Assembly: GCA_006384855.1 (NCBI GenBank)
Contig: VCJN01001211.1
Coordinates: 152,645-216,644 of the forward strand
DNA length: 64,000 bases
Direction of reading: 5' to 3'
From: Tetraselmis striata
Lineage: Eukaryota; Chlorophyta; Chlorodendrophyceae; Chlorodendrales; Chlorodendraceae
Shown here: positions 20,523 to 64,000 of the stretch, piece after piece
How the letters are laid out: each line of letters opens with the position of its first letter
Numbering within the stretch: the stretch's first letter is position 1
Position numbers and translations under genes: made by a program
Notes under the pieces: model-generated
Seen by the model: the letters and a program-made list of their open reading frames with translations, nothing else
What the model was told of the DNA's origin: nothing
Databases searched by the model: none

Positions 20523-20621
20523 GAGGGCTTTCCGTAACTGGATCGCTGCCGAAACGGCCGTCGTGGAGACGCTGCAAGGGTTTCACTGCAGCCAGTCCTG
20601 TCCCGGAGGCGGAAAAAAACA
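20523..20621 (+). mobile_element. Short poly(A)-tailed retro-insertion (SINE-like), with target duplication
   Basis: A 99-bp sequence beginning GAGGGCTTTCCGTAACTGGA and ending GCCAGTCCTGTCCCGGAGGC plus an A-rich tail is flanked on both sides by the 10-bp direct repeat TATCAGGTAT (20513-20522 and 20622-20631). The same sequence occurs inverted at 49602-49712, and its last ~35 bp occur at 112-146. Flanking duplications plus a poly(A) tail indicate insertion by LINE-type machinery. I see no tRNA-like promoter boxes in it, so its origin is open. Confidence 0.75.
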
Positions 20622-36725: not shown

Positions 36726-38872
36726 TTACCGGCGGAGCTCGAGGTGGCCCTCCGTGCGGGAGGGCGGCGGCCAGCGGGTGCCGGCACCGCGCTGCCCTCC
36801 CGGCGCCCCTGCCGGCGCGGGGCATTGCCGGAGGAAGCGGTGCGCGGGGCTGCTCGAGAACGCGGCGCTGCGCATCCAGATGACGAGGTTGTGGCGCTCG
36901 CCGGAGGACAGGGGGTGCGCGCCGTGGAAGTGCTGCCCCGCGTGCATCACCGCCATCCCCCGGCTGTGGGCCACCTTGGTGTGCTCCTGGGCGAGGCAGC
37001 AGCCGGCGGCATCAGGGCTCCAGAACCAGAGGCTCCAGAACCGGACGCTTGCCCAGCGTTGGTCGGTGCAGCCCCGTCACGGTGCGAGTGGGCGGCGGAG
37101 GCCACGACAAGGTGGCGGCATGCGCACCCGAGTGACACCGCCTCGGAGCACGAGCGAACCAGGACGTCCGGGGCCCGATTGCGTGGTTCGTGGCGTTAAG
37201 ACCCTAAAACACTAACACTATGACGACGCCGCCACATCTCGCGGCGTTGGGGAGTGCGTCGTCAATGTATTATCGCGCCTTTATTTCAGTTTCTTCGTGA
37301 TAAAAGTAAAAGTAAAAGTAAAAGTAAAAGCTTCGGGACATCGGCCGAAGCCGCCCCAGCACTTGACCTCTTGCGCCAACTGCAGTCGTAGGTCGGGCAT
37401 AGGCGCATAGCCCACTGCCTCATTCGAACCACGAAGGGCTAATGCATCAACCGGGCTGACCCGGGACACGGGCCCGGTCGATACCGCCCTCGTTGGGAGA
37501 ACCAGGAACCGAACCTGCGGACCTCTTGTCAAAGAGACCACCGCTCGACCGAGGGGACACGGAATGTACCAACATGACTGATGTTGCCATGGAGGGCTAG
37601 TGATGCATCAATCGGGTAAACCCGGGACACGGGCCGGTACAACATTGCCCTGAACTGACAGAGCCGGCTATCGAACCTGGGACCTCCTGAGTAGGAGACC
37701 ACCGCTCTTCCGAGCGGACAGACAACGAGGCTTGTAAGTGACGCATAAGGATTCTTCGTGATGCACAAGGATTAGAAGGAAACGGGGAATGGGGGCGAGC
37801 GCCAAGTGTATGTGGGCATGTAGTCATGTGCGCGCAAAGCTTTGTGAGCATCGGCGCATGTGTGCGTGGCTGGGGGGGGGGGGGGGGGGGCGTGGGGGGT
37901 TGTGGGGGGTCGTTGGTATCCCACATTGTCGTGCAGGATGGAGTCCCGCTGGCCTTCGAAATACACCTCCCCGCCGGTGAAAAGCCCGCCCAGATTGGCG
38001 TTGACGGTCACCTCGGACTGGGGAACAGGCAACAGGGGGTCAGGGGGAGGGGGGTCGCATGTCTCAGCACATACAGCGCCGCGAACGGGCAGGAGTGGTC
38101 CGCGGGCGGCACTTGCATTGCAGCTCCGTTGACGGTCGAGCCCTGCTGAGCTGCTGGTGGGGTGGCTAGCGCAGGGAGCTCACCAGATCCATGTGCCGGC
38201 TGAGGTCGCGGTCCCCGGCCATGGAGTACGATATGGTGAACGCGTGCGTCGAGTCGATGGTGGCGCCGCCCCAGTCCGGGAAGTACAGGGCGGCCAGCGG
38301 CGTCAGCACCGCCGTCACCAGCGGCATCAGGTCCAGCCCCAGCTCGTCCACGACAAAGCCGTAGTTGTTCATCGTGTTGGGGCGGGTGAACGTGTCGTTG
38401 CTGCCGGCGCCCTGCGCCACCAACAGGGCGCCCCCAGCGCTCAGTCATGGCAGCACGGGTGCGCCACCCCAAAGAGGAAGCCGTCCGGTGGGCATGCGCA
38501 CCATCTGCCATGCCACGGCGTGCTTCACCTCCTCCACCATCAACCTGAGCACACACACCAAGAGGTCCCCACTTATCAGCCCCTCCTCCCGCCCTAATAG
38601 AAACACATGCGCTCCACCGCGCCTTCCCCTTTCGACCACCGAGTTTGCCAAGTCGACCAGGGGACACCACCGCGCTGCCCCACGTGCCTGCAGAACTCGT
38701 CAGAGAAGAGCTGAAACATGAACACGCCGCCATGGATGCCGTCGCTCCGGGACGCAGGCTCCCCGCGCATGTGCTTGCCGGCGGTGACAGAGGGCTCCAC
38801 CGCGCGCATCAGTGCGTGAAGCTGCCTGGGGTCTCCGCTTTGAACGGCCCTCCATAGCTCCGGGTCGGCCAT
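36726..38872 (-). CDS. 2-oxoglutarate/Fe(II)-dependent dioxygenase (prolyl/lysyl hydroxylase-like)
   Basis: Five exons join in frame to 269 residues: 38872-38688, 38544-38502, 38411-38184, 38017-37925, 36986-36726. The enzyme should use O2, 2-oxoglutarate and Fe(II) to hydroxylate a substrate, probably protein side chains. Visible features are a N-terminal [14 protein letters not shown], then [38 protein letters not shown], the metal-binding HMD (first His and Asp), [18 protein letters not shown], and the second His plus 2-oxoglutarate Arg in [19 protein letters not shown], ending LVIWMRS. All three metal ligands and the Arg are present. The ATG at 38872 directly follows a CAG, so that point could instead be a splice acceptor of an upstream exon. 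Intron 1 appears to use a GC donor (TGCAG/GCACGT). Intron 4 contains the dimeric SINE (37302-37751). Confidence 0.82.
37302..37751 (-). mobile_element. Dimeric tRNA-derived SINE
   Basis: Read on the minus strand, it has two successive tRNA-like heads. Each has GAGCGGTGGTCTC or similar (box A region) followed by a GGTTCGRTNCC-like box B, then a CCCGGTTGATGCATTAG-like linker. One shared 3' part follows, containing GGGGCGGCTTCGGCCGATGT, and a (TTTTAC)n tail. The whole unit is flanked by the 11-bp direct repeat TTCTTCGTGAT (37291-37301 and 37752-37762), so it inserted as one dimer. It lies in the last intron of the dioxygenase gene, opposite in sense to the window but in the same sense as that gene. 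Confidence 0.85.
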
Positions 38873-39025
38873 CTGCCACCGGCCGTGGTTACGGGTGAGA
38901 CAGCTGGCCGACACGGAAGGAACCGCACATTACTTATATGTGTGTGTGTGTGTATATATATATGCATATATAAGCACCAAACATGTATATAAACACACAC
39001 ACACACATGTATATGTTTGTATACG

Positions 39026-39091
<66 letters not shown>

Positions 39092-40194
39092 CGCCGCACG
39101 TTACCTCTCCATGGTAGAGATGGTGCGGTTTTGCGTGGGTGCTCGTGACTGGGAGCGCGCGGTGGGGCAGCTTGAGATGCGTTAATGCGTTCCGCTTCTG
39201 CCAGCAGTGGCCGGGGGGGTCGGTAACCTGGGCCGGGCGCATGGCGCGCAGCTGAGGGTGCAGCGGGGGGTAGCGGGACGCCGTCTCCGTGCGCTCCCTC
39301 CGGAGTCGCCTCTGTTCCTGGAGAGCGCACGTGCGAGGGGCGCCGCGCGAGTCAAGCCGCTGCATAGAGGTTGCAATCACGGGCTTGGAGTGCCGGATGC
39401 CGAGGACTACCAAGTCCCTCCGCTGAGGGGGTGGCCATGACGGTGGCGGAGGCGACGCGCGCACTGCCTGCTGTATCAAAAGCAGCGCACTCGCCTGTTG
39501 GAGGGATGTGTCGCGGCGCGTGGCTTCGGCTCCCAGCAGTGCCATGGCGTCCCTGGCCGCAGCGCCTTCGGGACCTGGTGCGAGCGCATGACACGCCATT
39601 GCCGTCCTTATTGGTCGCAACACCGTGACGGCAAATGAGGCGCGGCCGCTGTTGGTCTCGTCCCGGCAGAGGCGGTGTTACCGCCGTGACGGCGGTGGAT
39701 CATCCGGAACTGAGCAACTCGGAATATACACATTGATTCTTCCGAGTGCGTGCTGATGCATGCCGGACTGCTGCAGCTGTACATAGGGAGCGTGCGCTCG
39801 CGAAAAACAACCCCCGACACGAGTCGATGCAGACCCGGTGGACAGCGATAGTTTTGCGACATGCGGTCCGGGGCCGAGTTGCTGAGCCCCCTCTCAAGTT
39901 TGATCGCTGGGCAAACGTGAAAACGGGTACCTGCTGGGTTGTGACAATGAAATGCCGCGGCGCGGTTGTGCGTGTGGCGGTTTTGGCGCCATGGGGAATG
40001 CTGCGGATGGCGGAGCCCCACCTGGCGGCAAGACCCACACATGGACGGCTGCGCTCACCGCCAGTCGCTTCCTGCTCCCATCCAGCACGCTCACAATCAC
40101 CTGGGCATCGAGCATCATTGGCCGGGGCGGCGGCGACATCGCAGACATCCATCAGCCACCAGCAGCATCCGTCCGCGTGGCAACATCAGTCATC
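38873..40194. other. Upstream region of the dioxygenase gene; no gene resolved
   Basis: A TA microsatellite occupies 39027-39091. Minus-strand frames between 39100 and 39620 and between 39890 and 40150 stay open and could hold extra exons of the dioxygenase or of another gene, but I recognise no domain. Confidence 0.35.
39027..39091. repeat. TA microsatellite
   Basis: Nearly pure (TA)n of about 65 bp. Confidence 0.95.
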
Positions 40195-40440
40195 TAGGTA
40201 CATTCTGTGTCCCCTCGGTCCAGAGGTGGCGGTCTCTTGGACAAGAGGTCCCCAGGTTCGAATCCTGGTTCTCCCACTCAGGGCAATAACGAACGGACCG
40301 GTGTCTCCCGGGTTTACCTGGTTCATGCATTAGTCCTCTGGGGCTCGAATGAGGCAATGCCCTAAGGGCTATATGGCGCACGAGGTCAAATGCTGGGGCG
40401 GCTTCGGCCGATGACACGGGGCAAACTTCACTCCATTTTT
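40195..40440 (+). mobile_element. tRNA-derived SINE, monomer
   Basis: Head GGTCCAGAGGTGG..., box B GGTTCGAATCC at 40255-40265, linker GGTTCATGCATTAG, then GGGGCGGCTTCGGCCGATG and a T-rich tail. The 10-bp string ATCAGTCATC lies on both sides (40185-40194 and 40441-40450). However, a similar string also sits in the linker of the dimer at 37.6 kb, so the left copy may belong to the element rather than be a target duplication. Confidence 0.75.
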
Positions 40441-40496
40441 ATCAGTCATCGGAACGCGGCGGCGCCGCACCTCATGGGCGCCGGGAGGGAGGTCTG

Positions 40497-41324
40497 TCAG
40501 CTCAAATTTGACGCGATGCACAGCACCGCCGGATGAAGCATCATCCCGTGTGCTTGTGACCAGCGTTGCTTGCTGGTCGCACTTGTGGCTGGCGCTCCAT
40601 GCCCGGCTGCTGCTGCCTGTGTCGGCCCCCGTGGCGTCCTCACTTTGGGTGACTGGCGGCGCACCGATGGACAGGCGTGAGTGTGAGAACCATGGCCGTG
40701 GTGTCTATGTTGACGTTTGCCTTTCACAGCATGGGGTGTCGCTGCACGCTTGGGGCAGGGGCACACACGGCATGCGGTAAAGAAGCGGTTCTGATGAGGC
40801 GTCGGAAACACATCAAAGTGCCACACGGTGATCTCGCTGCTCCGTATCCCCACCTCCAGGCCCAGCTCGGAGAGGCTGCAGCGCAGGTACACCAGTCGGC
40901 GGCATGTCATGAGCGGCAGTGCGGTAAGACTGTGGCGCCATGCCGTCAATTGCGGTGGAAAGTGGTGTCGCTTAAGATAAAATGGCAGCCGCGGCAATTG
41001 AAGGATGAAGCTCCAATCAATCATCAAAGCAGCGTACCGAAGGCCGCGCTCATGATGGCGCGGCAGGCGCATGTCAAGGAGGAGGGGCTGGGACGCGGTG
41101 GCCGGCCGGCTCCTGCCTTCCCATGCCCTGGTGCCGGCGCCGCTGTCGCCTCGTGTCGTGGCATTCACCACCATGCAGTTCGTGGTAGGAGTGATGGCGA
41201 TACCTGTGACGGCCATCCGCGCGGCCTTGAGACCAAAGGCGGAGCAGATGATGCAGTGCGCTGAGCAGCCACCAATGGGAACACTAATCATGTGGAAAGA
41301 GCTGCCCCGCGACGGCAGATGCAT
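40497..41324 (-). other. 275-codon open frame, function unknown
   Basis: The minus-strand frame contains tryptophan- and leucine-rich stretches (MIDWSFILQLPRLPFYL, ITVWHFDVF) and histidine-rich segments. I recognise no family, and the plus strand is also open for 195 codons over the same place. It may be an exon, a decayed element or chance. Confidence 0.2.
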
Positions 41325-42189
41325 TACGTCAGAGGGCCATCACATTCTGCCTGTGGGTCGCGGCATTGGCGCATTGCGAGCTGTACGCATTTATAGCAGT
41401 TAGATGTGTGTCTCAGTTGAAGGGAAGATACACTGAAACGCACCGACACTTTATGAGGACATTAGGCACTTTGAAACACTGCGAAAATAATACGGCTCCG
41501 TAGGTGAGCGAGAACGTTTATTATTAATCATATACTGCCTCGTTGTTAGTTGAGTTTTAGCCATCAAGGCCCGCAGCAGCAGCACGGCTTGTGTGAGGCC
41601 TAACCCCGGCCTTTATCGACGCCATCTCGGCTCGCTGTCCAGTCGACGCCGGGGTGTTTCTCGCCACTGGCGTGCCGAATGCACACGCCCACAATAGGAT
41701 GACGAGCAAAAGGGCCGGCCGCCACCGACGACAGAGCTGGTGGTGCGTTCCGGAAGGCAGTTGCATGCCTCGCGGACTGAGCATGCTGTCGGGGATATGC
41801 GGCTCGCCCTGCGCACGGACGACACGAGAATCGGCTCAGCGACAAAGATGCGTATATCTCGCTCTCTGTCTCGGCAGTTGACGGTAGGCGATCCTTGAGA
41901 TCAAAACCTCGACGACTATATGTCGCTGCGTGTCCTGTAGCGGGACGAAAGTATCCAAGGAGGCGGCAGCACAGGGGGGGGGGGGGGGGGGGGAGGCTCT
42001 GCCCCAACTGCACGCAGGAAAGGACACGCCTATGCAGATATCGCTGTCATTGAGAGGTTACTGAAGGATTGAGTGTCACAGCCGCGGCGCTCTACCTCCA
42101 CATAGCTAGGTCACGCCAGAGGCGTGGCTGACCAGGCGGAGTGACGGCGAGTGCTGTCCTCATATAAAAGGCTTATAATCAGGGACGCC
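41325..42189. other. Non-coding stretch, nothing recognised
   Basis: A G homopolymer at 41976-41993; no supported exon or known repeat. Confidence 0.4.
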
Positions 42190-42640
42190 CTCAGCACCCT
42201 TACGGCTCGCTACTCATCGTATCAGTAGAAGTAGCGTACTCAATCAGCAGGGACAGTAGTGGCAATACTCCGCCCCCCTGCTGCGCTGTTGGGGACACGT
42301 GTCTAATACTGTACAGCACTGCAGGTGTCCCTGCCAGCGCTCGGTGTTTTGAGGTCTGTACAGGTACTACTCAGTCGCTACCTGTACTGCTCGTACGTAA
42401 TGTTGTACAATAGATGCATTGGCCCTGCGCTAGCTTGGTTTCCGGCTCATTAAAAGTAAAGTGAAGTTCGCCCCGGGACATCGGCCGAAGCCGCCCCAGC
42501 ACTCGACCTCTTGCGCCAACCGCAGTCGTAGGTCTAGTTCTGACATAGTATTATACACTATATCTTTTGCTGGCACATTTCGCAATTGTCTTTACTCCTG
42601 CTTTTAGTGCGCATATGTTATCGCACTCATGTAAAAAATG
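42190..42640 (+). repeat. Inverted partner of the repeat at about 47540-47960, interrupted by a SINE tail
   Basis: Compared with the reverse complement of 47540-47960, the two share CCCCCCTGCTGCGCTG, GGGGACAC.TGTCTAATA and CACTGCAGGTGTCCCTGCCA in order, then the CTTTTGCTGGCA...TTTTAGTGCGCATATGTTA motif. The SINE fragment at 42452-42535 sits between these blocks and is absent from the 47-kb copy. Confidence 0.7.
42452..42535 (-). mobile_element. tRNA-derived SINE, 3' fragment
   Basis: Contains the shared 3' part (CATCGGCCGAAGCCGCCCCA on the plus strand) and the AAAAGTAAAGT tail, but lacks the tRNA-like head. Confidence 0.75.
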
Positions 42641-44025
42641 AACAATATATATGCGCATTCGTCTTTAAAGGGTATGTTAGTATTTTAGGGTATGCTGGCA
42701 CTTTTGTGTGTGAACATTTAAAGAAATCTGATATTGTTGCGCATCGCTGAAATGGGGTATGCAATAGAAAATTAGAAATCCTTCCTCATGCGATGGATAG
42801 TTATCGTTATGGTCGCTATAACGATAACTATCCATCGCATCAGCACCGACGGCCGGCCGGCCGACGATGTTGGGCTTTTTGGGTATGGTGCTTCCGCAGG
42901 AACACGGTTGCTGTCGATACCACCATTGCCCCTATCCTCGACGTGTCAAGCTCGGATCCAACGACTGCATTGCGGGCCGCATAGCGCGACAAAATCCAAA
43001 AGTACGACGAGGGTGTCCGAAACGCCGCCGGCATGCTTCGCTTTGTTCCTTTCGCCGTCTCCGAGTCCGGCTCGCTGGCCCCGCACGCTGGGGCCTTCTT
43101 GGTGGAGCTCGCGAAAACTAGCCATCACATCACGCACACCGGCCAGAAAATCGGCCAGCTCTTGTCTGCATTGCGCCGCCGTTTCTCCTTGCTCATCAAC
43201 ATGGCACATGCAGACGGCGTTCTTGGCGGGGTCGCGGCGGCGTGCGCGGCACGTGATGGTGCTCCTGCTCATGCGTCGCGTCGCTCGTCGGCATGTGTTG
43301 CTATGACCCGGGTCATTGGCTGCAAGCGTTCTCGCTGCGGCCTATGGGCTACCCCGGGGCGGTGGTCCCCATTGGTTTCATGTTTCCCGTTTGGTCTTTC
43401 TTGTCGTTCCGTGGCTTCAGTGCTTCCCTTGACCCTTTGTGCGACAGTCTCTGCCGGATAGAGACTGCAGGGACAAACAAAGGTGGTGTGCAGTGGTGGT
43501 GCAAAGGCGAGAGGCTACAGTGTTTTTCAGCATAGAACAATTGTTGAACACAACGCTTACCACACGGCAGCATTATACAGTACATATACTCGTAGTCTCA
43601 GGTACACATTGTACTAGTACACACAGGTACTAACTCGTAGTATATCGTACTCGTATAATTGTCACATTTGGTTCTAGGCAGCTTGGCGACATCGTGGTTC
43701 CCTTGGCTCTTCCTTGTTCCTTGGCTTCCTGCTGGCCTCCTGCTTGACCTTGATTTCATGCTTTTGTCTCTCTTTTGCTGGCAACCTTTCATAGTTGCTT
43801 TTAGTTATGTTTGCAGTGCGCATGCATATGTTAAAGCCCTGATGAATCCATCGCATCAGGAAGGATTTCTATTGCTTGCCCCATTTCAGCGATGCGCTGC
43901 AATATATGATTTCTTTAGATGTTTAAAAACCACAAAAGTACCCGCATACCCTTACATTACTAACATACCCTTGTAAAGACGAATCCATATATTGTTTATT
44001 CTTACATCAGTGCTATATATGTTAT
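42605..44025. mobile_element. ~1.4-kb element with ~180-bp inverted ends
   Basis: The left end (about 42605-42795) and right end (about 43848-44025) are inverted copies. Shared words include ATTCGTCTTTA, AAGGGTATGTTAGTA, GCGCATCGCTGAAATGGGG and ATCCTTCCT.ATGCGATGGA. A perfect hairpin lies at the inner border of the left end (42788-42840). The interior has open frames on both strands (43033-43461 plus, 42946-43272 minus) without a recognised domain. I could not fix the exact ends or a target duplication. Confidence 0.6.
42788..42840. repeat. Perfect hairpin, 23-bp stem, 7-base loop
   Basis: Arms 42788-42810 and 42818-42840 are exact reverse complements; the loop at 42811-42817 reads GGTCGCT. 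Confidence 0.95.
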
Positions 44026-44184
44026 CCAGCGGAGCGTCGATTTTTCGGCGGTGAGCTTTATTGCCGTAGGGGTACCCGTATAGTGCAGCGGATCGGGCCT
44101 ATAGGTGCATGACTAAAGCGCCTATCTACTGGCATGTACTACTAAGTACTATAATCCACCCACCCACCCGCCCACCCACCCACG

Positions 44185-44642
44185 GTCCTTAATTACACAG
44201 CCGTCCGATTACGATATCACGGTTGGGAGGTACTGGTACTGGTACTCGCTACTCGCTGCTGGTACTGCTGGTACTGGTACTGGTACTGGTACTCGCTACT
44301 CGCTGCTGGTAAAGGAAAAAACTCTGGTACTTCAAAGCGCTGGCAATGCAAACGCTCGCTGCTGGTACTTCAAAGCGCTGGCAATGCAATTCATGGAACT
44401 GTAGGCCAGTGATATAGAACCCGTTCTTTTAAAATTTTCTGGAAAATCGACGCATCGCTGATTCAACCGTCAAGTTACTTCATATAACATATATAACATA
44501 CAACTGATACATTATATTATAACATATGCGCACTAAAAGCAGAACTAAAAGCAATTGTGAAATGTTGCCAGCAAAAGTGATATTGTGTAAGGCTGAAACC
44601 AAGGGTCAAAGCATATAAATTATTGTACAACATAACATAACA
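44185..44642 (+). repeat. Direct duplication, copy 1 (partner 47288-47750)
   Basis: Nearly identical to 47288-47750, from GTCCTTAATTACACAGCC to ACAACATAACATAACA. Both include a GGTACTGGTACTCGCTACTC simple-repeat segment and a reverse copy of the dispersed GCGCATATG motif. Confidence 0.9.
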
Positions 44643-44989
44643 AACAGTAATGCAACCTATTTTGCCCCGAGGCACGCGGTGCATTGTGGTTAGGTCTAAA
44701 TTAGGGTTTGGGGGCAGCAGTGGGATTGCAACCTAATATGAATGCCGGTTGGTTCATTTTGTGCCAAGTCGGGGAAACCAATTCCGTCCAAGCAGGGACC
44801 AATCAAAAGATTGAAGGAAACGGGATGGTTACAAGAAGTTTGCGCCATCGGGGGCTGAAACTCTGTCCAAACTAGGACAAAAATAAGGGCGGGGGGGCGT
44901 GATGGCTACAAGTAGTTTGTGCCGTCGGGGGCTGAAACTTCGTCAAAGCCGGGACAAAACATACGAGCGGCTGTTTTTGCGGAATTGTA
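44643..44989. other. Short tandem duplication, otherwise nothing
   Basis: Two diverged ~80-bp units share TCGGGGGCTGAAAC (about 44850 and 44925), each followed by GGACAAAA. Confidence 0.5.
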
Positions 44990-45295
44990 CTACATATCAT
45001 CATCTTCGATCACATAATAATCCCCTTGACGCTCTGCCGCCTCGAGTCTCCTCTTCTCCGCCGCTGCACGCTCTCCCCGCTCCTCTTCCTCGGTCATCGG
45101 AAGGGGTAGACCCGGCCACTTCTCGAAGTCATATGGATGCAGTCTTTGAGTCTCGTCCCATGGCTGCTCTTTGAACCATGAGGTCATCCTGGACTTCATC
45201 CGAACGATTTGCGTCTTGTTGTTGTCAATAAGGACCGTCTTCAAGTTCCTCTGCCTAAACGAGTGGGTCGGATGCATTATATATCGTCTCACCAT
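44990..45295 (-). CDS. Possible small gene or exon, unknown function
   Basis: A 101-codon minus-strand frame. Its second half is strongly charged and protein-like: FKEQPWDETQRLHPYDFEKW, then EEEERGERAAAEKRRLEAAE, ending YYVIEDDDM at a stop. The codon use and the acidic C-terminus look real, but I recognise no family, no partner exon is evident and a mobile-element origin cannot be excluded. Confidence 0.3.
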   Translation of the reverse strand: MVRRYIMHPTHSFRQRNLKTVLIDNNKTQIVRMKSRMTSWFKEQPWDETQRLHPYDFEKWPGLPLPMTEEEERGERAAAEKRRLEAAERQGDYYVIEDDDM

Positions 45296-47004
45296 ACAGC
45301 GAAGTCATGCAGCAGGGACCTGAATGCGTGGCAAACCGACGAGGCGGTATTTTTTATGTTGATCGCATTGCTATGTTATGTCACCCGGGATGCTTTCGGT
45401 ACTTTTGATACGCCGTAACTCACATATTAATTATACAATAGCGACTAAATACGGCAACATAGTAATAATGTTCGCTGATGGCAACACACACGATCAGCCG
45501 TCGCCGGCATCTAGCGGTTATTGTTCCGTCTGGGAATTTATTTTGCCAGACGCGTCCCCTAGGGGTCCTTTGGCTACATGGCACCTTGTCTTGGACGGCT
45601 ACATGAATATTTGAATATTTGAAGGCCCGTCCTCCCAGTGTCCCTCGTCCGAGGGCCGTTAGTGCACTTCAGTTGTAACTCTCTCAAAATGGACGATGAC
45701 TAAAGAAGTAGTGGACCATAGTATTCAGCACTGCGCTTGCTGCTCAACATATATCGTCGATCGTCGTCGCGGTAACATATGCCACGATTACAGGTAGTGG
45801 CTAATGGGTACATGTAGTAGTAGAGTCGGACTAAGAGTATAATTAGCTGGCCCAGATTAAATTATCATTCTACTATGGACCTAGCATGGGTCGTTACCGC
45901 AGTCGTAGGGCTGGATCACGGGCCGTGCTCCGGTCTAAATGGTGAAGCTCATGCCCTCCAACCCGACCGCCAAGACATCATCCCTCACCTGACCAGCCGC
46001 TGCCTCAAGACGTACGCACAAATTAAACGTGGGAAAAATAAGAGCACCCATTGGGTGCAAATGACACTACCACCCTTTTATTATGATATTATTTTAAATA
46101 CAAAGTAGATTCATATGTTATTTCCAAGCGAATATTTCCGCCTATTACTGGTACCTCTACAGCAGGATGTTGTATATCGCTACTACAGGTAATCCTTACG
46201 GCCAGATGCTGTGCTGATATGCTCGTCGCAATCCTTAGCGCTATTACACTTATCCTTGGCGGTAGCGCCTGGAACCCTTCTTCTACTTGCTGCACACGGG
46301 TACCCGAGTCGCTACTCGCTACTGCGACTCGCTACCAGAGGCTAATCGCTCTTGTGGTCGCTTTATTTTACCGCCTAGCAGTCGCGCCAGTTTAGGAGCC
46401 GTATTTTACATAGCGAGCGATCCTTATTATACGCTGATTAGCACCATTAGCAGTAGCTGATTCGTACGTGCAGTCGCGCTACGACAGTATCTAGCTACGG
46501 CGACTGTACTACTACTACCAGGGGCGGTAGGGGTACGGTAACCATAGTGACTACTAGTAAATTCCGCCGACAGGTACAGCAGGTACGCGCACCTGCTACT
46601 ATAAGGGATAAGGATCACCAGACATGAAGATTTTTCGTACGTCGTCGCGCGGCGCTACATATATAGTGGCTATTATACCCTTATACGCGACTGCCCGTAG
46701 CGACTCCTGGTATAGGCAGTGGACTACTGGTATGGGTACTGCTATGGGCCTTACGCGACTACCCGTACAAGGTATCGCTCGTAGATATTTGCCAATACCC
46801 CGTCCCGTAAGGATTACTGGTACCAGAAAGAGAATATTGTGGGCGGGTTAGGGAATCCAAGTAGGGAATCTTCCTACTCGCTGTAGTAACTGTAGTGCGT
46901 CTGTGTGTGTACTCGCTACCAGTAAAGCAGGTACTACTCGCTACACCTACTAGCGACTACACCTCGCTACACCTACTGCTGGCTGTACTCGCTACGTGCA
47001 GCGA
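45296..47004. other. Non-coding, rich in TCGCTAC/GGTAC words
   Basis: No exon recognised. From about 46130 to 47000 the sequence is dominated by degenerate words (TCGCTAC, GTACTGGTA, AATCCTTAC), as also seen around 49 and 59 kb. Confidence 0.4.
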
Positions 47005-47008
47005 CTGT

Positions 47009-47287
47009 TTTCGTCCCACTGATGACAGACCGTTTCGTCCCACTGAGGACAAACCGTTTCGTCCCACTGATGACAGACCGTTTCGTCCCACTGATGACAA
47101 ACCGTTTTGTCCCACTGATGACAAACCGTTTCGTCCCACTGATGACAAACCGTTTTGCCCCACTGATGACAAACCGTTTCGTCCCACTGATGACAAACCG
47201 TTTTGTCCCACTGATGACAAACCGTTTCGTCCCACTGATGACAGACCGTTTCGTCCCACTGATGACAGACCGTTTCGTCCCACTGAT
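47009..47287 (+). repeat. 24-bp minisatellite, about 12 units
   Basis: Units have the pattern CGTTTCGTCCCACTGATGAC plus ARAC. Units 4 to 9 alternate strictly between TTTCGTCCC and TTTTGYCCC, suggesting a 48-bp duplication step. Because 24 is divisible by three, all frames stay open; the resulting translation is not evidence of a gene. The array ends exactly where the duplicated segment 47288-47750 starts. Confidence 0.95.
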
Positions 47288-47750
47288 GTCCTTAATTACA
47301 CAGCCGTCCGATTACGATCTCACGGTTGGGAGGTACTGGTACTGGTACTCGCTACTCGCTGCTGGTATTGCTGGTACTGGTACTGGTACTGGTACTCGCT
47401 ACTCGCTGCTGGTAAAGGAAAAAAACTCTGGTACTTCAAAGCGCTGGCAATGCAAACGCTCGCTGCTGGTACTTCAAAGCGCTGGCAATGCAATTCATGG
47501 AACTGTAGGCCAGTGATATAGAACCCGTTCTTTTAAAATTTTCTGGAAAATCGACGCATCGATCGCGGATTCAACCGTCAAGTTACTTCATATAACATAT
47601 ATAACATACAACTGATACATTATATTATAACATATGCGCACTAAAAGCAGAACTAAAAGCAATTGTGAAATGTTGCCAGCAAAAGTGATATTGTGTAAGG
47701 CTGAAACCAAGGGTCAAAGCATATAAATTATTTTACAACATAACATAACA
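47288..47750 (+). repeat. Direct duplication, copy 2 (partner 44185-44642)
   Basis: Differs from copy 1 by a few substitutions and a short insertion (GATCGATCGCGG versus GATCGCT near 47563). Confidence 0.9.
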
Positions 47751-48212
47751 GTACATAACATAACAATACATAACAGTCGCTACCTATAACATAAGAGCGA
47801 CTGAGTAGTACTGACCTGAAAACATCAAGCTGGCAGGGACACCTGCAGTGTTGTACAATATTAGACAAGTGTCCCCGCCAGCGCAGCAGGGGGGCGGGGA
47901 TGCTGTTGCCCCTACATGTACTGTCCCTACTGTCCCTGCTGACTGAGTATCTAAGGGTACTTCTACTGATACCGTAAAGAAATGTGATGGATAGTTCTGG
48001 TCACTGTAATATGATCTGCGATATACCATATTGTTTGCTCCTTTCCCCCACCGCCGGCTGGGCGGGCCCAACGACCGTCCTCGGCCCTCGGAATCGCGGG
48101 CCCTTCCTCCGCCTCCACCCCCGGCTGGGGATGGGGGCGGGGATCGTGCACGGGTGGCGCCTTGGTAGCCTTCGCCCCGCCCGTGCTGCCACTGCCGCGG
48201 AGGAGCAGTGTG
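47751..48212. other. Non-coding stretch
   Basis: The first ~210 bp are the inverted partner of the repeat at 42190-42640. The rest, to about 48200, has no recognised feature. Confidence 0.5.
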
Positions 48213-48835
48213 AGCTGGACACCGGCGGCTTACGTCGTTGCTGGTCCGGTCAAGTCCCCGTTCGTTGTTCTCTGAGCACCCTCTCCCTTCCTGTCCTGTC
48301 GGCGCCTCCACATCACATTCGGCGTAGTGCCGCTATTGGAGTGGCCCGGGATGTTGTGTTGGGAAGGGAGTTCTACGTTCGGCGGAAGGGGACGCGACCG
48401 AGCCTGCGGCGGATCTGGACACGTTGGGCGGAACAAAGCGCGCTGGACACCGGCGTCTTACGTCGTTGTTGGCCCGGTCGGCTCTGCATTCCCTATCCCT
48501 ACTCGTTGAGCACTTTCTCCCTTCCTGTCATGTTGGCGCCTCCACATCACATTCGGCTCAGCGCCGCTATTGGAGTGGCCCGGGATGTTGTGCTGGGGAA
48601 GGCGTTCTACGTTTGGCGGAAAAGGACGCGACCGAGCTGTCGGCGCATCCGGCGTTGGGTGGCCTGCGTCTGTTGCACGCCCATGGCGCCCCGTGCTGGG
48701 TTGGACCCCTCCACTTCCGCTCCTTGCTTCGAGACCTCAACTTCGAAGCTCCTTTCCTGTCGGCGCCTTCACATTACATTCGGCCTAGTGCCGCTATTGG
48801 AGTGGCCCGGGATTGTGTGCTGGGGAGAGCGTCCC
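48213..48835 (+). repeat. Tandem repeat, ~230-bp unit, about 2.7 copies
   Basis: CTGGACACCGGCG recurs at 48215 and 48443, and TTGGAGTGGCCCGGGAT recurs three times. A 310-codon frame spans the array, but it reads as a repeat translation and contains no known domain. Confidence 0.8.
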
Positions 48836-49824
48836 TACTGCGTGGAGCGGCGGCTGGCTGGTGGCGATGCGTGGTCGGTGGCTACCATGGCGGTTCCCGC
48901 CTCTGTTGGCCCGTAGCTGGATTTCCTTCTGGATTTCTGTGTGGATTTCTTGAATGTTGCGTCTAGCACATGTAATCGATATACCATATTGTCGCTAGGT
49001 AATCCTCACACGTATACGGTCGCTCATTATCAATCTCAGTATCATATTAATCCGTACTACCCTACAGTCGCTACTGGTATGGGTCTGCCGGCGTGGTCCA
49101 GAGGTGGCAGATGGTGCGGGGCTGATTAAATGATTTGTATTTGTATTTTAAATTTATTGTATTAATTGATTGACATAGTTTCAAATAATGCTTTCTAATG
49201 TTTATGCTTACTAAAAAATAATAAAAATTTAAAAATATACCGTATATTTTGAAATAGAAAACGAAATTCGTCATTTGCTATTAACAATGTAAGCAAATAC
49301 TAAATACGCCCCGATCATTATCTTACTGATAATAAGACTCTGGCGGGCCCTGACGACTCCCCCCACGGTGAGGATTGCTAATAAATATGTATTATCACTA
49401 ATATGATAGGCGCCCGCCCGGTTCAATTCTAAACTCCGTCGCCTAATAGAAATGTTGCGGGGCCTGCGAGCAGTTCCCGCGTGGCGCACCCTTTACTCGC
49501 TATATAGTCGCTAAATAATCCTTACGGGGAACACCAAGTTTTTCCCGCCCCGCCCGGTACCGGGACAGCCGGACATCAGGTACCTGGTACCTGGTACATC
49601 CCTTTTTTTCCACCCCCGGGACAGGACTGGCACCAGTGAAACCCTTGCAGCGTCTCTATAGAGACGTATACGACGGCCGTTTAGGCAGCAATCCAGTTAC
49701 GGAAAGCCCTGGGTAGGCGACGCTCCGTTATAGTCATCAAGCAAATTGCCGAAGCATTTCGCAAGACTAATTAAAGTCCAGTGACGGAATTTCCAACACT
49801 GTTGGATCACCGTCTAAAACACAT
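48836..49824. other. Non-coding, including an AT-rich island
   Basis: 49127-49300 is strikingly AT-rich for this window. 49540-49600 has GGTACC-type words. No exon recognised. Confidence 0.45.
49602..49712 (-). mobile_element. Short poly(A)-tailed element, inverted copy
   Basis: The reverse complement matches 20523-20621, from CAGGGCTTTCCGTAACTGGA to GCCAGTCCTGTCCCGGGGG plus an A run. It carries an internal TCTCTATAGAGA palindrome absent from the 20-kb copy. Confidence 0.75.
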
Positions 49825-50088
49825 GGTACATCCCTTGTCCGCTCGGTTGAGCGGTCGTCTTGTACGCGAAACGTCCGGGTATTGAATCCTGGCCGATGCA
49901 TTTTCGGCAATTTGTTCGTCCCAGCGTGTCCTGGGTTTCCCCGGTTGATGCACATAAGCACTTCGGGGTTCGAATGAGTCAATGGTCTACGGGCTATGCC
50001 AGACCCATACGACCGCAGTTGGCAAAGAGGTTAAGTGCCGGGGCGGCTTTGGCCGACGTCCCGGGGCGAACCTTACTTTACTTTTACC
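49825..50088 (+). mobile_element. tRNA-derived SINE, monomer
   Basis: Head CGGTTGAGCGGTCGTC, weak box B (TATTGAATCCTGG), linker CCCGGTTGATGCA, CGGGGCGGCTTTGGCCGA and a (TTTAC) tail. No clear target duplication seen. Confidence 0.75.
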
Positions 50089-50496
50089 TGGTGCAATTCC
50101 TTGATATTGCTATATCTCATGTAATTGATATTGGCGTACAGGTAGCAGTCGCTACTGCCCCTCACCCTGTACCGCACGCGGCCGCCGCGCTGGCAGCTGC
50201 TCCAACTCGCATGCACCTACCGGGTAGTCTGGCGCCGAGGGGCTCCAAGCTGTTATATAAATACACAGGCGCCACCTCGCCGTCAGGCGGGCCCCCAGTC
50301 ACGATGGAGGCTCTATAGAGGGAGGATCCAGTCAGGAGAGCTTGCCAACGCATCGGGGGGCGGTATTCCCAGCCAGGAGCACGGCACAGGGTTCCCTTCA
50401 ACGCGCGGGACGGCGACGTGCCCCGCGAGTAAAAACCGCACTACTGTTTCGGAGCGCGACCAATCATCTGCCACCTCCCCGCCTCCTCCAGCCACG

Positions 50497-52053
50497 ATGC
50501 CACAGCGCTGCGCGCTGAAAAGATACCCGTACGTTAAGCTCCGGAGTGGCGCCGCAATTCCATTGACGCTGGTGCTGGTGCTAGTTTCTTTGGCCGGAAG
50601 CTCGGCGGCGATGGACGGCCCGCTCGTCAGCCATACGGCCGCCGATATGGCGCTGAACGCGACTCGGGAGCAGCTCGCCGCCGGAGTGCCGGCCTGCCAG
50701 GGGCTGCGCCTCACGCGGGAGACCACGTACGTGCAGTGGCTGCGTAGTGCAGAGGTGATTCGTGGCGTGGACGAGGGAACGTGGAAGGCGCCCATGGAGT
50801 GCGCGGACGCGGCCGTCAGGTATGAACGACGGGCTCTCCACAAAAAAGCCGGAGCGAGAGGGAGTTCGCTGAGTCCCTAGGTCGGTCCGGGTAGGCGGCA
50901 GCATTAATATCGGTACACGCGTGTCGTCAGACATGCACGACTTATTGGCTCGTGCGAAAGGGGAGGGCGACAGATGTGCGGCAACGAAGGGGTGGAGGCC
51001 CGGGGGATGTTCCGAACTCACTTCCGCCTTGCCTGTGTGGGTGCGCGGCAGGATCAGCATCCAGGCGGTGCCTCCCTCCTGGGGCCTGGGTGACCACGTC
51101 GACTGCTCACAGGACGACTTGGTGAGCATGTTGACTTTTAAAGTTGCTGCCCGCTAGCGGCGGCCGCGTGTGTACACTCCACTGCATGCGCATGTGCATG
51201 TCCCCATACTGCCCCGCTCTCACCCACAAGCACAACATCAACCAAGCAGGCACTGAGCACCCCCCCCCCCCCTCCCTCTCGGCTCTCATTGGCCAATTCT
51301 GCGCAGTATGTCCTACTTGACGGCGATACTACCGCTGCGGATGGTCTGTCATATATGGGATACACATGCATGTACTCCGACCTCTACCTGGTGGCAACCA
51401 CGATGTGCCCCGGCCTGGTCGAGCTGGAAGTGGTGGCGGACGTCTATGACGTCACACAGAACGATACATCATGCACGCAGCAGAAGTTCATTGTCCGTCC
51501 CCCAAACATGCTCCTGATGCTGTTCAGCAGCAGCACTAACAAAGTCACTGGTGCCAGCAATGAAGTATTACTGTGGCGCTGCTACTGACAGCGCGTGATG
51601 GCGCATGCTGGTACAGGACACCGCATACGCTCGCCAGGTTTCCCTGTTGCTCCTGTACCTTGTGTTCATGGTGCCCTTTATGGTGGCGGGCATCATCTTC
51701 AGCTGCGTCTTCTGCAGCGGCGGCTGCTGCTTCGGCTTGCACGGCAAGCTGTGCTGCTGCTTGCAAGTGAAAATGGTGAGAGAGAGCTGCTTTTGTACTC
51801 CCCCTCCCTAATTATGACATGATCAGATGTGTGTGCGTGGGTGCAGGAGAGGGGGGGGGGGGGGGGGGGGGGGGGGGACCTCACGTGCATGGCTGCTGGT
51901 GACACATGCAGAATTACGCCCAGAAGATGAAGTTCGTCCGCCTAATCAACGTGGGTGGCCACTCACGTGGTTTCACCCTCAATCTCATCGCAGCTGGCAT
52001 CATCTGGGTACGGCTGCGGCAAGGGCTGCCCCCCCCCCCCCCCCCCCCCCCCT

Positions 52054-52133
<80 letters not shown>

Positions 52134-55100
52134 GGTCTCTTCCTTCCATACGCCTTGTCAACTGGCTCGCCCTCCCTGAGGCAAGCAAATGGCAGCCAGA
52201 GACCCGTAGAGCATCACGATGCCTAGCTTGTAGGGTTTGCATGTCAGCATTGCGCTCCCCGGTACTGACTCTGGCATGCCTTCCGCGGCGACCGGATTGA
52301 GCAGCTGCAGGCCCAGCTGTGGCTCCCGGCGCTGGACCCGCCGCCGGGCGTGACTGAGCTGGACACAATCGGCGGGTTTGGCTCGTTCGTCGCGTCCGAG
52401 ATGGTGGAAACAGGCAGCCCCATAGTCAAGCAGTTCTCGGTGAGTCGGCGCGCCGTCACCCCCCCCCCCCCCCCCCCCCCCCCACATCGCGCATCGGCCT
52501 GCAGAACTGATTGCGCAAAGGACCCGCGCGCTATATCTCAGCGGAGCCCCTCCTTGTCTCCTCCAGGGCTTTGTGGACTGGATGCTCAAGATGCTGCTCT
52601 GCTTCATCATCGGCTATGCGGTGTACGGCTGCCTGATGATGAACTACACGCTGAGGGGGCAGGACAAGTCGGCGGTCACCCTCACGCTGTCCTGGATCTT
52701 CCTCGGCCTCCTCAACGTCTTTGTTGCCATCCTGGTGCGGCTCCCAACGTTTCCCCAGCCGCGATCCAACCCCCCCCCCCCCCCCCCCCCCCGCCTCCTC
52801 CCCACACACTGACCGCCCTCATGCCCATCCCCATGATGGCCAGATGGTGGACGGCTTCTATCTCATTCGGTACTTCCAGAACGCTGCGGCATTCTGGTAC
52901 TTTTACAGCGCCCTCATCCTGCACACTCTCGGTGCCGACTTCTACGCCATCCGCCTTCTGCTGTTCCCAAGGTTTACCCCCGCCCTGCCCCTCCCCCTCT
53001 CCTCACAGAGACACAAATCTCTCCAACATTGTATTGCGTTTCCAGCGCTGCATCGCATCATTGTTGATGCCGCAGTATTATTGTTGACATCGCAGTATTG
53101 TTGATGTCGCTGTTTAAGATGTTTCTTCCAACAGTTCGTGCCGGAATGCATGCCGTGACATGTTTGCACCTTTCTTCCCGCCACAGATTCCGCTGGAATC
53201 ACAAGTACTCGATGTTGCAGTTCAGAGCGGGCAATCATGGCGGCGTATGCCGATGCTGCCGCCGCGCATGGACGCGCTTTAGCAACTGGATTGGCGAGGA
53301 CCCCGCCTTCCGCTACAGCCCCTGGATGCTGGCGGCCGTGCTGGCCGCCTTCCACGTGCTGCTCTTCTCGTTCTTCACGTCGCTCTTTAAGCTCATCGGC
53401 ATCTCGGACTGCCTCAAGGTTGGTGGCCCGCCGTCACTGCCCGTCCTGGTAGTACCCCCCCTGGGCCCCAGGGGAGCTGCATGAGGACGCTCTGAGGGCC
53501 GGCTGTGCCCATTTCTGCTGCCGTTGCCCGGCCCGCTAGGATGTCGATGTCTGCCTGACAGGCAAGCTCCTGGAGAACTTCTTCTTCATCCCCACGGAGC
53601 AGATCATCACGGCCGTGCGGGGGGGCAAGGAGATTGGCACCGACACTGCGCTAGCCAACTCGATGGAGGTGCACCCTGCCACCTTCTCCACCATGGCATG
53701 CCGCGGTCTAGCTCCTAACGTGCTAGCCGGTATATGCCAATGACATGATCCCCCTTACCTCTCCCCCCCCCCCCCCCTGCCCACAACACACACACATACG
53801 GTTGCCTGATCTGATACAGTCTTGCATGCTACATGTCTGTACCAGGTCATCTACAATGTGACGGAGCCGCTCCTGAGTCAGTTGGAAGCCATTTGCAACC
53901 AGACCGCCAACATGCCGGCTGACATGCAGGCTCGCCCCAACCAGCGCGCCCCCAGCCCCCAGCCCCCTCTCAAGCCTGCTTTCTACCGCTGCCGGTCACA
54001 CCACAGCGCCTGACCGGCTGCCCCTGATGATCCACCAGGCCGCTCTGGGCGCAGCGGCGGGCGAGGACGCGAGTGCCAACGCCACGATGGCGCTCTTGCA
54101 GCAGTCGCTCGCCAGCCTCTGCGCTACCAATGTGACGGATGCGGCCTCGATGCTGGCCGGCCAGCTGGACAATGTGACGCCCACCCACCGGCCTTCCACC
54201 CCCATCATGCCCCGCAGCAACACAGCGCGCATCGCACTGAGCTCGTCACGGCGATCGGTCCCCTTCTGCTGCAGGCCATCTACTCCGTGTTTGGGCCCGG
54301 TAATGGGCCGCTGGCAAGCAAGCTGGCGTCCGCCAAGGCTGCTGCGGAGGCGGCTTACGACAAGTACATGCAGGTGTGGCCGGGGCAAATCGAGCACCGC
54401 GCACGGCCTATGCCTGGATTGGCTCCTGCGCAGTCCAGTAAAAGTTAAGCTCGCCCCAGGACATCGGCCGAAGACGCCCCAGCACTTGACCTCTTGCGCC
54501 AACGGCAGTCGTAGGTCTGGCATAGCCCATAGACCATTGCCTCATTCGAACCCCGAAGGGCTATATGCATCAACCGGATAAACCCGCCGGGACACGCCGG
54601 GCCGATATTGCCGAAACACATCGACCAGGAATCGATCCCGAGACCTCTTGCACACGAGACGACCGCTCAGCCGAGCGGACAAGGAATGCACCTTGCGCAG
54701 TCCAGTATGGCACCTCAGGAGGCGGCATACCTCCACCCAGCCCGCAACGAGTCCCGAGCCTGGCTATTGCTGAGCATGGCACTTTGCCGGCCGCAGATCA
54801 ACTCGTTGCTGCAGGAGCTGGCAGACAGCTTCATAATCGGCGCAGTGCTGGGCTACACCATCGGCCTCGTCTGCGGTGTGTACGTTCTCATGCTCACCCT
54901 GGCGCAGTACAAGGCGCTGGTGAAAAAGATCAAGCGCGACACCATCGTGCGTGCATTCACGGTGCGGACCCGCCCACATGCGCATTCCGCATCATATGAC
55001 ATCGCCACACAATAGTCCAAGCTGGGTGTTTGTAGCATTGATGTACGGCACAGCTGGTGCAGCATTTCGTTCACCCCACACAGGTGGTACAATGCATCTA

Positions 55101-60220: not shown

Positions 60221-62165
60221 ATGGCGCGCGCCTCTGCAGTCTGCCGCCGCCGCCGGCCGCTCGCCCGCAGCGTGGCCGCCCACCTGGTGGCGGCCGCGCT
60301 GCTTCTGTGCCACTGGCGTGGCATCGCAAGCGGCTTCTTCACCCGGCGGGAGCCAAACCAGCCGGCGGGAGTTTCAGGTGCACTGCCCCCCACGTGTGAC
60401 ATGCAGGGGATAGAACAAGGCTGGGCGGGGGGCGACCCTGCTTGTGCCTCAAATTACGTTCGTTTTTTGCCATGCCTTAGCTGCCCGCATGGCCGCCACA
60501 CCCCCCATGCGGTGCCGGCGGGGCGCGGCTATGTGACCAACCTGCAGCTGTGTGCCGCTGTCTGTCTCCGCAGAGCAAATTGTGGGCGGACGCTTTGCAG
60601 ACCGCAGGCGCTACCCCTACATCGTCTCCCTGCGTGACCCCGCCACGCAGCGCCACCTCTGCGCCGGCGCGCTCATCAGGCCGACGATTGTCTTGACGGC
60701 CGCGCACTGCGTGGACGACCGCCGCAACGCCAACGCGGTGTACCGGCCTTTGGTGGCCACGGGCTGGGAGTGCGGTGCCAGATGCAGCGCGGAGGACAGG
60801 CTGGCCGCCAGGGAGGAGACCTCCAGCACGAAGAACACCGTCATCCATCCCCAATGGACAGGGTCCACCTTCAATGGTGGCGACCTGGCGCTGCTCTTCC
60901 TGGACAGCGCGATGACCAAGCCGCTGCTGCGCTATCACCCCCAGCGGGAGCTGCAGCCGTTCGAGGCACTTACATTTCTGGGGTGGGACCACGACGGCCG
61001 CGTGTCGGACAAGCTGAAGGTCGCCCAGCTTCCGTACCGCCCCAATGAGGCCTGCCAGTGGCTGTACCAGCAGATGGATGGCGTGGGCGGGGACTTCGCC
61101 ATCCGGGGCGACATGATGTGCGCCGGCGGGCTCGGGGACAAGACATGCAACGGCGACTCGGGCGGCCCGCTCATCCTGGCGGGCCGCACTCACCAGGAGG
61201 ACGTCATCGTCGGGATCCTGTCATTCGGCGCCGAAGACTGCCTGACCTCTGACACTCTACCCTCAGTCTTCGCCCGATTGTCCATGTATCAGGACGACTT
61301 GGTGGCCATTGCGCCGCCAGTCTACGGTGACCGGACACGCGCTATTGCTGCCGTCGCCCAGGCCCCCGCCGCGCCGGCCCCCACCCCAGCCCCCACCCCA
61401 GCCCCCACTTCCGGCCGCTTCGGCAATTTTCGCTTCCCCTACGTGGCCTCCCTGCGCGACCCCGCCACGCAGCGCCACTTCTGCTCCGGCGCTCTCATCA
61501 GCCCCACCGTGGTCCTGACCGCTGCGCGCTGCGTGGACGGCGATCCGCGCGTGCCGCGCGGGAAACGCGACGCGGTGCTGAAGCCCGCGGTCGTCATGGG
61601 CTGGGAGTGCGGCGATAGATGCAGTGCCGAGGAGAGGCAGCTTGCCCGGCTGGAATTCTCGACCACTTTGAGGACAGTGCCCCACGGGAGGTGGCGGGGC
61701 TCCGCCGCTGACAATGGCGACATCGCGTTGCTGTTCCTCGAGCGCCCGATGACCAAGCCGGTGCTGCGCTTCCTGCCCCAGCCGGAGCGGCTGAATGACC
61801 AGGACCTCACGTTTCTGGGATGGGAGCTGGACGCCAGCGGGCGCCTGCCGGATGGGCTCAAGGTGGCCCCGCTCCCGTACTGGCCGAGGGAGGCCTGCCA
61901 GTTGTTGTATCAGCAGAGGGAGGGCGTAGGCCAGGGGTTCATCCTCAGGGACATGATATGCGCTGGCAGTTTCGGGGACAGCTCGTGCAGTCACGACATT
62001 GGCGGGCCGCTGGTCATGGCGGGAGAGACATGCGGGGAGGATGTGGGCGTGGGGCTGATGTCATTCGGCGCGTTGAACTGCCAGGACGCCGACATTCCGG
62101 CGGTGTTCACCCAGCTGGCCATGTATGTGGGAGACCTGGCGGGTCTCGCCCCGCCAACCAGCTAA
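60221..62165 (+). CDS. Secreted tandem trypsin-like protein: one active and one dead S1 domain
   Basis: Two exons, 60221-60377 and 60574-62165, join in phase (TCAG/AG) to 582 residues. A signal peptide is likely (VAAHLVAAALLLCHWRGIASG). Domain 1 starts at IVGG (about residue 55) and has the complete chymotrypsin-family triad: TAAHC His97, GDLALLF Asp156 and NGDSGGP Ser248. A proline/alanine/threonine linker (about 307-333) follows. Domain 2 (about 334-580) is a clear paralogue (SLRDPATQRHFCSGALISPT) but has TAARC (His to Arg) and SHDIGGP (Ser to Ile, with the preceding GD changed), so it cannot be a serine protease; the Asp in GDIALLF is kept. Domain 2 also lacks an IVGG start. In domain 1 the residue before IVGG is Gln, not the usual Arg/Lys, and the position equivalent to trypsin Asp189 reads Lys242. 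The dead domain may bind ligands or regulate the active one. Confidence 0.93.
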
Positions 62166-62955: not shown

Positions 62956-64000
62956 GAAGTCTATATATGGTACGAGTACTCGTTCGTTCGTGTACGATGT
63001 ATATATGTGTACCTGAGGTTACGACGAATGCATGTATATTTATTACATCGCGCCGCCGCCGTGTGGCAAGCGTTGTGCTTTTGAGGAGATGGATGCCGCC
63101 TCGATTGTTACACTGGTTTCGGATCATGAGTTTCGACCCAGGAACATACAGAAATCGCCGTTTCGATCTCCATCAAAGCTGAGAATTGATGACTCAAGGG
63201 GGTGGGGGGAAGGAATGTAGTGAGACAATAACGAAGTCTATATATGGTGCGAGTACTCGTTCGTGTAGGATGTGTACCTGAGGTTACGACGAGTGCCTGT
63301 ATATTTATTACATCGCGCCGCCGCCGTGTGGCAAGCGTTGTGCTTTAGAGCCGATGGATGCCGCCTCGATTGTTACACTGGTTTCGGAGCATGAGTTTCG
63401 ATCCAGGAACCTAGAAATCGCCGTTTCGATCCCCATTGAAGCCGATAATTGATGCCTCGCGGGGGTGGGGGGATGAGGAATGTAGTAAGTGTCACCATAA
63501 CCAAGTATTTATATTACGAGTACTGGTACGTCTCGATGTGTACCTGAGACTACGACGAGTGCCTGTATATATGTTATATCACGCCGCCGCCGTGTGGCAA
63601 GCGTTGTGCTTTTGAGCAGATAGATGCCGCCTCGATTGTTACACTGGTTTCGGATCATGAGTTTCGACCCAGGAACATACAGAAATCACCGTTTCGATCC
63701 CCATCAAAGCTGAGAATTGATGACTCAAGGGGGTGGGGGGAAGGAATGTAGTGTCTCAATCACGAAGTCTATATATGGTACGAGTACTCTTTCGTGTAGG
63801 ATGTGTACCTGAGGTTACGACGAGTGCCTGTATATTTATTACATCGCGCGGCCACCGTGTGGCAAGCGTTGTGCTTTTGAGCAAATGGATGCCGCCACGA
63901 TTGTTACATTGGTTTCGGAGCATGAGTTTCGATCCAAGGACTTAGAAATCGCCGTTTTGATCCCCATTGAAGCCGAGAATTGATGTCTCGCAGGGGCGGG
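62956..64000 (+). repeat. Satellite, ~270-bp unit with two alternating unit types, running off the window
   Basis: Units start near 62956, 63233, 63502 and 63764 (GAAGTCTATATATGG-like), giving periods of 277, 269 and 262 bp. All share GTGTACCTGAG, GTGGCAAGCGTTGTGCTTT and GATTGTTACA.TGGTTTCGGA. Units 1 and 3 share GACCCAGGAACATACAG and GATGACTCAAGGGGGT; units 2 and 4 share TTTCGATCCA, a shorter CTAGAAATCGCC or TTAGAAATCGCC, and CTCGC.GGGG. No gene is seen. Confidence 0.9.

Follow-up and report, generated by a model that had tools for sequence, protein, structure and literature searches.

A SINE family in the window

The window analysed here, a 64,000-nucleotide stretch of contig VCJN01001211.1 of the green alga Tetraselmis striata, carries at five places copies of a short repeat that we read, with a probability of roughly 0.85, as a short interspersed element (SINE) inserting by target-primed reverse transcription. 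One of these places holds a dimer that gives two head matches and one tail match (Table 1). A profile search of the window returned six matches, two of them from the dimer, recovering the places marked in an initial annotation and no others; none of 20 randomised versions, made by shuffling the window in 2-base blocks, had a match. Exact direct repeats flank three of the copies and measure 11, 14, and 10 bp; the window contains none of these words a third time. The first two pairs had been annotated, whereas the third, around the 40-kb copy, had been missed. No convincing target duplication was found at the 42.4-kb and 49.8-kb copies of the window. The annotated dimer is borne out as a unit with two heads, one tail, and one pair of duplications, the two heads being of different kinds. 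The description of all five copies as sharing a head, a linker, a conserved block, and a TTTTAC tail holds in part: they do belong to a common family, but only two of the five carry the exact 20-bp block, the 42.4-kb copy is reduced to its 3′ part and lacks both head and linker, and the 40.2-kb copy has no TTTTAC tail.

Table 1 SINE copies, target duplications, and copies of a second repeat family (Z) in the window. Head types A, B, and C are our reading of the aligned sequences; likeness is to the draft consensus.
Position	Strand	Feature	Profile match	Remarks
109-139	+	Z copy
20558-20619	+	Z copy
37291..37301	.	target duplication TTCTTCGTGAT, first copy		exact; elsewhere in window only at 37752
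37302..37751	-	dimeric SINE: head type B, head type C, one body, 3′ tail with (TTTTAC)n		exact 20-bp block at 37338-37357, minus strand
37319..37570	-	dimer's second head (type C), body, 3′ end	37321-37570(-)	nhmmer positions 3-252
37588..37722	-	dimer's upstream head, type B	37588-37721(-)	nhmmer consensus positions 12-139; profile 12-138
37752..37762	.	target duplication TTCTTCGTGAT, second copy
40185..40194	.	target duplication ATCAGTCATC, first copy		exact; elsewhere in window only at 40441
40195..40440	+	diverged SINE copy, head type C	40196-40432(+)	71% alike
40441..40450	.	target duplication ATCAGTCATC, second copy
42458..42548	-	3′ fragment: end of body, hairpin block, tail	42458-42548(-)	profile positions 165-249; exact 20-bp block at 42478-42497, minus strand
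49603-49659	-	Z copy
49825..50088	+	SINE copy, head type A	49825-50079(+)
54427..54440	.	target duplication TGCGCAGTCCAGTA, first copy		elsewhere in window only at 54694
54441..54693	-	full-length SINE copy, head type A	54441-54692(-)	91% alike
54694..54707	.	target duplication TGCGCAGTCCAGTA, second copy		TACTGGACTGCGCA in element orientation, TAC overlapping tail

Copies across the genome and their age

When the genome (224 Mb in 2,903 contigs) was mined for the conserved block, as the initial annotation had proposed, 1,405 exact copies of the 20-bp sequence were recovered (702 + 703), against none for the reversed control. The 54-kb copy has at least 42 genome matches (40 scored of 2,964 first-look candidates), at least 29 of which share one identical score over the whole query. 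In the five of these that were inspected (L004-L008), the downstream flanks are all different and the upstream flanks have in common, in some, only a 336-bp sequence referred to below as module X. Copies of equal score in differing flanks suggest that the family has recently been active. It is also old, since likeness to the draft consensus has fallen to 71% in the 40-kb copy. Extrapolation from the exact blocks, with the block present in two of the five window copies, gives a rough total of a few thousand copies. The unit is thus both short (~250 bp) and dispersed in many copies, as a SINE should be. The region of the 54-kb copy (L001) is itself duplicated on another contig (L002), with 96% identity over at least 3.2 kb.

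For closer analysis, loci were sampled around the first 30 of the 1,405 exact blocks and at the eight best matches of the 54-kb copy; L001, which is the window itself, and L023, which overlaps L022, were left out, leaving 36 loci. The draft consensus has 52 nhmmer matches in the window and these loci, and the family, the target duplications, and the dimeric form are all backed by genome copies.

Target duplications and the TAC preference

Exact repeats of at least nine bases lie at the ends of 22 of 40 units, 11 of them beginning with TAC and one with TTAC; this count has no control, and a few of the 22 are probably due to chance. A stricter test used only sequence past the last tail repeat and took scores of at least 7 as confident. 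It covered 46 copies with a 3′ end, 41 of them with a tail; L002 was excluded because it is a segmental duplication of the region at 54 kb. Confident duplications were found at 13 of the 41 tails, compared with 0.8% in a swapped-locus null, and 11 of the 13 have, in the 5′ flank, TAC immediately ahead of the repeat. TAC makes up 1.48% of positions overall and 2.3% in the 120 bases upstream, which gives binomial values of 6e-19 and 9e-17, respectively; one of the 13 contexts was placed in another locus's copy of module X, which affects only the figure for the local background. The two confident duplications without TAC belong to 3′ fragments (L013 and L015). The SINE tends, then, towards insertion at TAC, the same three bases that close its own tail. 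We considered whether the match might arise from aligning the duplication into the tail and rejected this, because the search was limited to what follows the last tail repeat, and the preceding bases were examined only afterwards.

Individual sites illustrate the process. At L006, an inverted SINE interrupts module X between 16-bp direct repeats, of which up to ~4 bp may be the element's own 5′ end, and the uninterrupted module in L008, L037, L005, and L029 provides a paralogous empty site. At L003, an insertion of 23 bp consisting of tail only lies between two copies of TACCAACACTACCG. Because the family appears young and offers clean duplications, an empty site, and this tail-only insertion, the contact between primer and tail can be read from the sequence; the family is ordinary in kind, yet preserved well enough to reveal its mode of insertion. 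The initial annotation held that the duplications prove target-primed insertion. Together with 5′ truncation and the match between tail and target, they strongly support it, but fall short of proof.

The preference for TAC has two candidate explanations. We lean slightly towards the first, in which a primer ending in GTA would pair with the UAC of the tail: what matches the target is the final TAC of the TTTTAC repeat, and repeat number differs among tails, an outcome expected if a paired primer slipped. In the second, TAC would reflect only the cutting preference of the endonuclease of a partner long interspersed element (LINE), either with no tail pairing or with a tail that evolved towards the preferred site. 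Purines predominate immediately before TAC (G 5, A 4, T 1, C 1; n = 11), so the preference may extend beyond the bases with which the tail can pair, and we regard this alternative as a serious one, if somewhat short of even odds.

Structure of the unit

The head runs from GGTACATCCCTTGTCCGCTCGGTAGAGCGG through GGTTCGATTCC to GATGTA and is followed by a body with GTTGATGCATTAGCCC and GGTTCGAATGAGG, then by GACCTACGACTGCAGTTGGCGC, the conserved block, CCCGGGGCGAAC, and TTTACTTTTAC. A cloverleaf fold was obtained for the draft-consensus head (z -1.89, equalled by 9 of 200 shuffles). This head contains the B box GGTTCGATTCC with no mismatch and an A-box-like site with one. Heads in the window match the B box with 0-1 mismatches, except the 49.8-kb head, which has three; the box matches carry no chance control. 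The aligned anticodon loop may be read as CGT (Thr). The 3′ part contains a predicted hairpin with a UUCG loop.

The same data bear on whether the repeats might instead derive from the 3′ part of a longer element, a LINE or some other, with tRNA-like heads arising by chance. A cluster of truncation points hints that sharing with something else is limited to the final ~90 bp: six of 15 5′-truncated copies (composite L029 left out) start within one 12-nt bin, positions 158-169, a bin picked after the data had been seen. Many copies, however, share one 5′ endpoint in the head with duplications directly adjoining it, and the perfect B box and cloverleaf fold also speak against chance heads. Since full-length copies are bounded by duplications at the head, we consider this explanation very improbable.

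Dimers, composites, and interchangeable heads

The dimer of the window, with TTCTTCGTGAT at both ends, combines by our reading heads B and C, and a second dimer, in L025, heads A and B; a search for a duplication around the latter unit found none. In L016, a head, unrelated sequence, and a second body all lie within one 11-bp duplication. Module X has matches in eight of the 36 loci, one of them partial (L025), and stands upstream of SINE sequence in seven; in five loci it adjoins the SINE head within 0-9 bp, whereas its junction in L029, determined by eye, falls inside the SINE. The module has a B-box-like site with one mismatch and no tRNA match in Rfam.

Such arrangements could in principle be nested or tandem insertions rather than single units. 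Both kinds do exist in the sample (L006 and L033, respectively), and no exact repeat of at least nine bases surrounds the X-composites L005, L008, L009, and L034. Yet duplications lie outside the whole unit not only in the 37-kb dimer but also in composites L037 (12 bp), L029 (18 bp), and L006 (14 bp), making four multi-module units so bounded; L008 has an 8-bp outer duplication by eye, with none found for L005, L009, and L034, and the closeness of the X-head junctions also favours single units. Nested or tandem insertion is therefore an improbable account of the dimers and composites as a whole. The heads are modular, some multi-module units have clearly inserted as single units, and the X-composites and dimers imply that one 3′ end has been combined with several heads.

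The sequence TGGCAACATCAGTCAT precedes the dimer's second head (37560-37590) and recurs at the same offset in the 5′ flank of the 40-kb copy (40170-40200), which has its own duplication where this sequence lies; transfer of flanking sequence is a possible origin.

A second repeat family and the search for a partner

A second family, Z, has 17 matches with variable 5′ ends and a 3′ end in CCAGTCCTGTCCCGGGGGCGAAAAAAAAC. Besides the window, copies occur in L009, L010, L012, L015, L034, and other loci; the 3′ motif is reached in 15 of the 17, its form varying. Z and the SINE have in common the 3′-terminal motif TGTCCCGGGG(G)CGAA: at the Z end, TGTCCCGGGGGCGAA precedes A-rich repeats and resembles the TGTCCCGGGGCGAAC of the SINE, and the short inverted repeat immediately ahead of it is a different one. 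A permissive scan for this motif in the window and loci outside SINE and Z copies gave 78 places, which look like chance except for the L003 insertion. At 49603-49824 of the window, a Z copy appears to be arranged head to head with the SINE at 49.8 kb, the two 5′ ends facing each other.

The initial annotation suggested that the conserved 3′ block may be borrowed from a partner LINE. For such a partner there are two leads, the motif held in common with Z and an L1-like LINE in L008 (reverse transcriptase E 6.3e-22; best solved match LINE-1 ORF2 protein, E 2.8e-16). A composite SINE sits in this LINE, and insertion there is no sign of partnership. In L021, positions 1-789 encode a tyrosine-recombinase-type N-terminal domain (PF02899, 1.3e-7); downstream of it lies a lone SINE 3′ end without TTTTAC.

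Proposed mechanism of insertion

In the mechanism we propose, RNA polymerase III would transcribe the SINE from the internal promoter suggested by the boxes of its tRNA-like head, yielding an RNA that ends in the predicted UUCG hairpin, the conserved CGAAC, and UUUUAC repeats. The enzyme of a putative LINE would recognise this 3′ end and nick the target, exposing a DNA 3′ end of the form ..GTA-3′, which may pair with the terminal UAC of the RNA so that reverse transcription begins there. The product would be an insertion between duplications of about 10-18 bp, mostly starting with TAC; incomplete copying would leave 5′-truncated copies, and joining of extra head modules would give dimers and X-composites.

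Several results weigh against this picture. No confident duplication accompanies 28 of the 41 tails in the stricter test, although that test misses real ones, such as that of the 37-kb dimer, which scores 2. The 11 TAC cases come from only nine loci, three being copies inside L006, and other duplications start differently (ATC at 37 and 40 kb of the window, TAG in L013, TTA in L015, AC in L003 and L033). ARAGORN reports no tRNA in the window, nor does Rfam at its gathering score; in Rfam searches with an E-value threshold the sole tRNA-family alignment, on one head, has 13.7 bits (E 1.5, gathering 29), and the 40-kb head has none. The 3′ end folds no better than shuffled sequence (z 0.22), and base changes at paired hairpin positions mostly disrupt pairs; covariation of the hairpin does not count here as evidence. 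Conservation of the block is partly built in, because 30 loci were picked by exact block. Finally, no LINE ending like the SINE turned up, in an analysis that included no genome-wide search for reverse transcriptases. For the annotated tRNA origin, the outcome is mixed: the cloverleaf fold and perfect B box make it likely that the heads are tRNA-derived, whereas all tRNA models stay below significance.

Other features of the window

Direct repeats at 44185-44642 and 47288-47750, 99% alike and ~3.1 kb apart, resemble long terminal repeats, and tandem units of 24 bp accompany them at 46961-47336. The reading frame at 60537-62162(+) encodes a trypsin-like protease (PF00089, 1.6e-56), and a tandem repeat of ~265 bp occupies 63005-64000, reaching the end of the window.

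Comparison with known systems

Beyond the alga, searches whose records may exclude the window's own genome gave 0 matches to the block pattern in viral contigs and 0 to a 29-base pattern in prokaryote genomes. A TTTTAC-tailed SINE is not described in the titles and abstract beginnings of the literature searched, full texts lying outside that coverage, and the word SINE does not occur in the passages considered of PMC8226300.

Dimeric and composite animal SINEs place several small-RNA-derived heads before one 3′ end. The units described here resemble them in having multiple heads and one 3′ end, but differ in that different heads occur in differing orders (A-B, B-C, X-A) on one shared 3′ end.

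The 3′ end invites comparison with elements of the stringent type (Ohshima 2013, PMC3747384). UnaL2, whose 3′ end is recognised stringently, ends in (TGTAA)n, and template slippage has been proposed for the repeat tails of some stringent-type elements (PMC3747384). Stringent-type LINEs and SINEs share with the present family a 3′ stem-loop with adjacent conserved bases and, for part of them, a repeat tail (PMC3747384); the tail unit here is another one, and the partner LINE is so far a putative one. It is conceivable, though on balance unlikely, that SINE and partner LINE RNAs ending in UUUUAC are used at nicks ending in GTA, the tail serving as a short evolvable guide and one 3′ cassette being carried on interchangeable heads. 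If the tail does help to choose the site, the view of such tails as mere recognition or slippage elements would need widening.

The closest parallels are SINEX-1 to -6_CR of Chlamydomonas reinhardtii, six SINE families paired with RandI/Dualen or L1-1_CR LINEs, with which they share 3′ ends within the same genome (Ohshima 2013, PMC3747384). They too are short and non-autonomous, some with tRNA heads, and carry short tail repeats, namely (ATT)n, (CTTT)n, or (A)n, none being TTTTAC (PMC3747384). The tail unit here is thus different, in a comparison made by description rather than by sequence. By this analogy, the present family is probably best viewed as a Chlamydomonas-type SINE with another tail.

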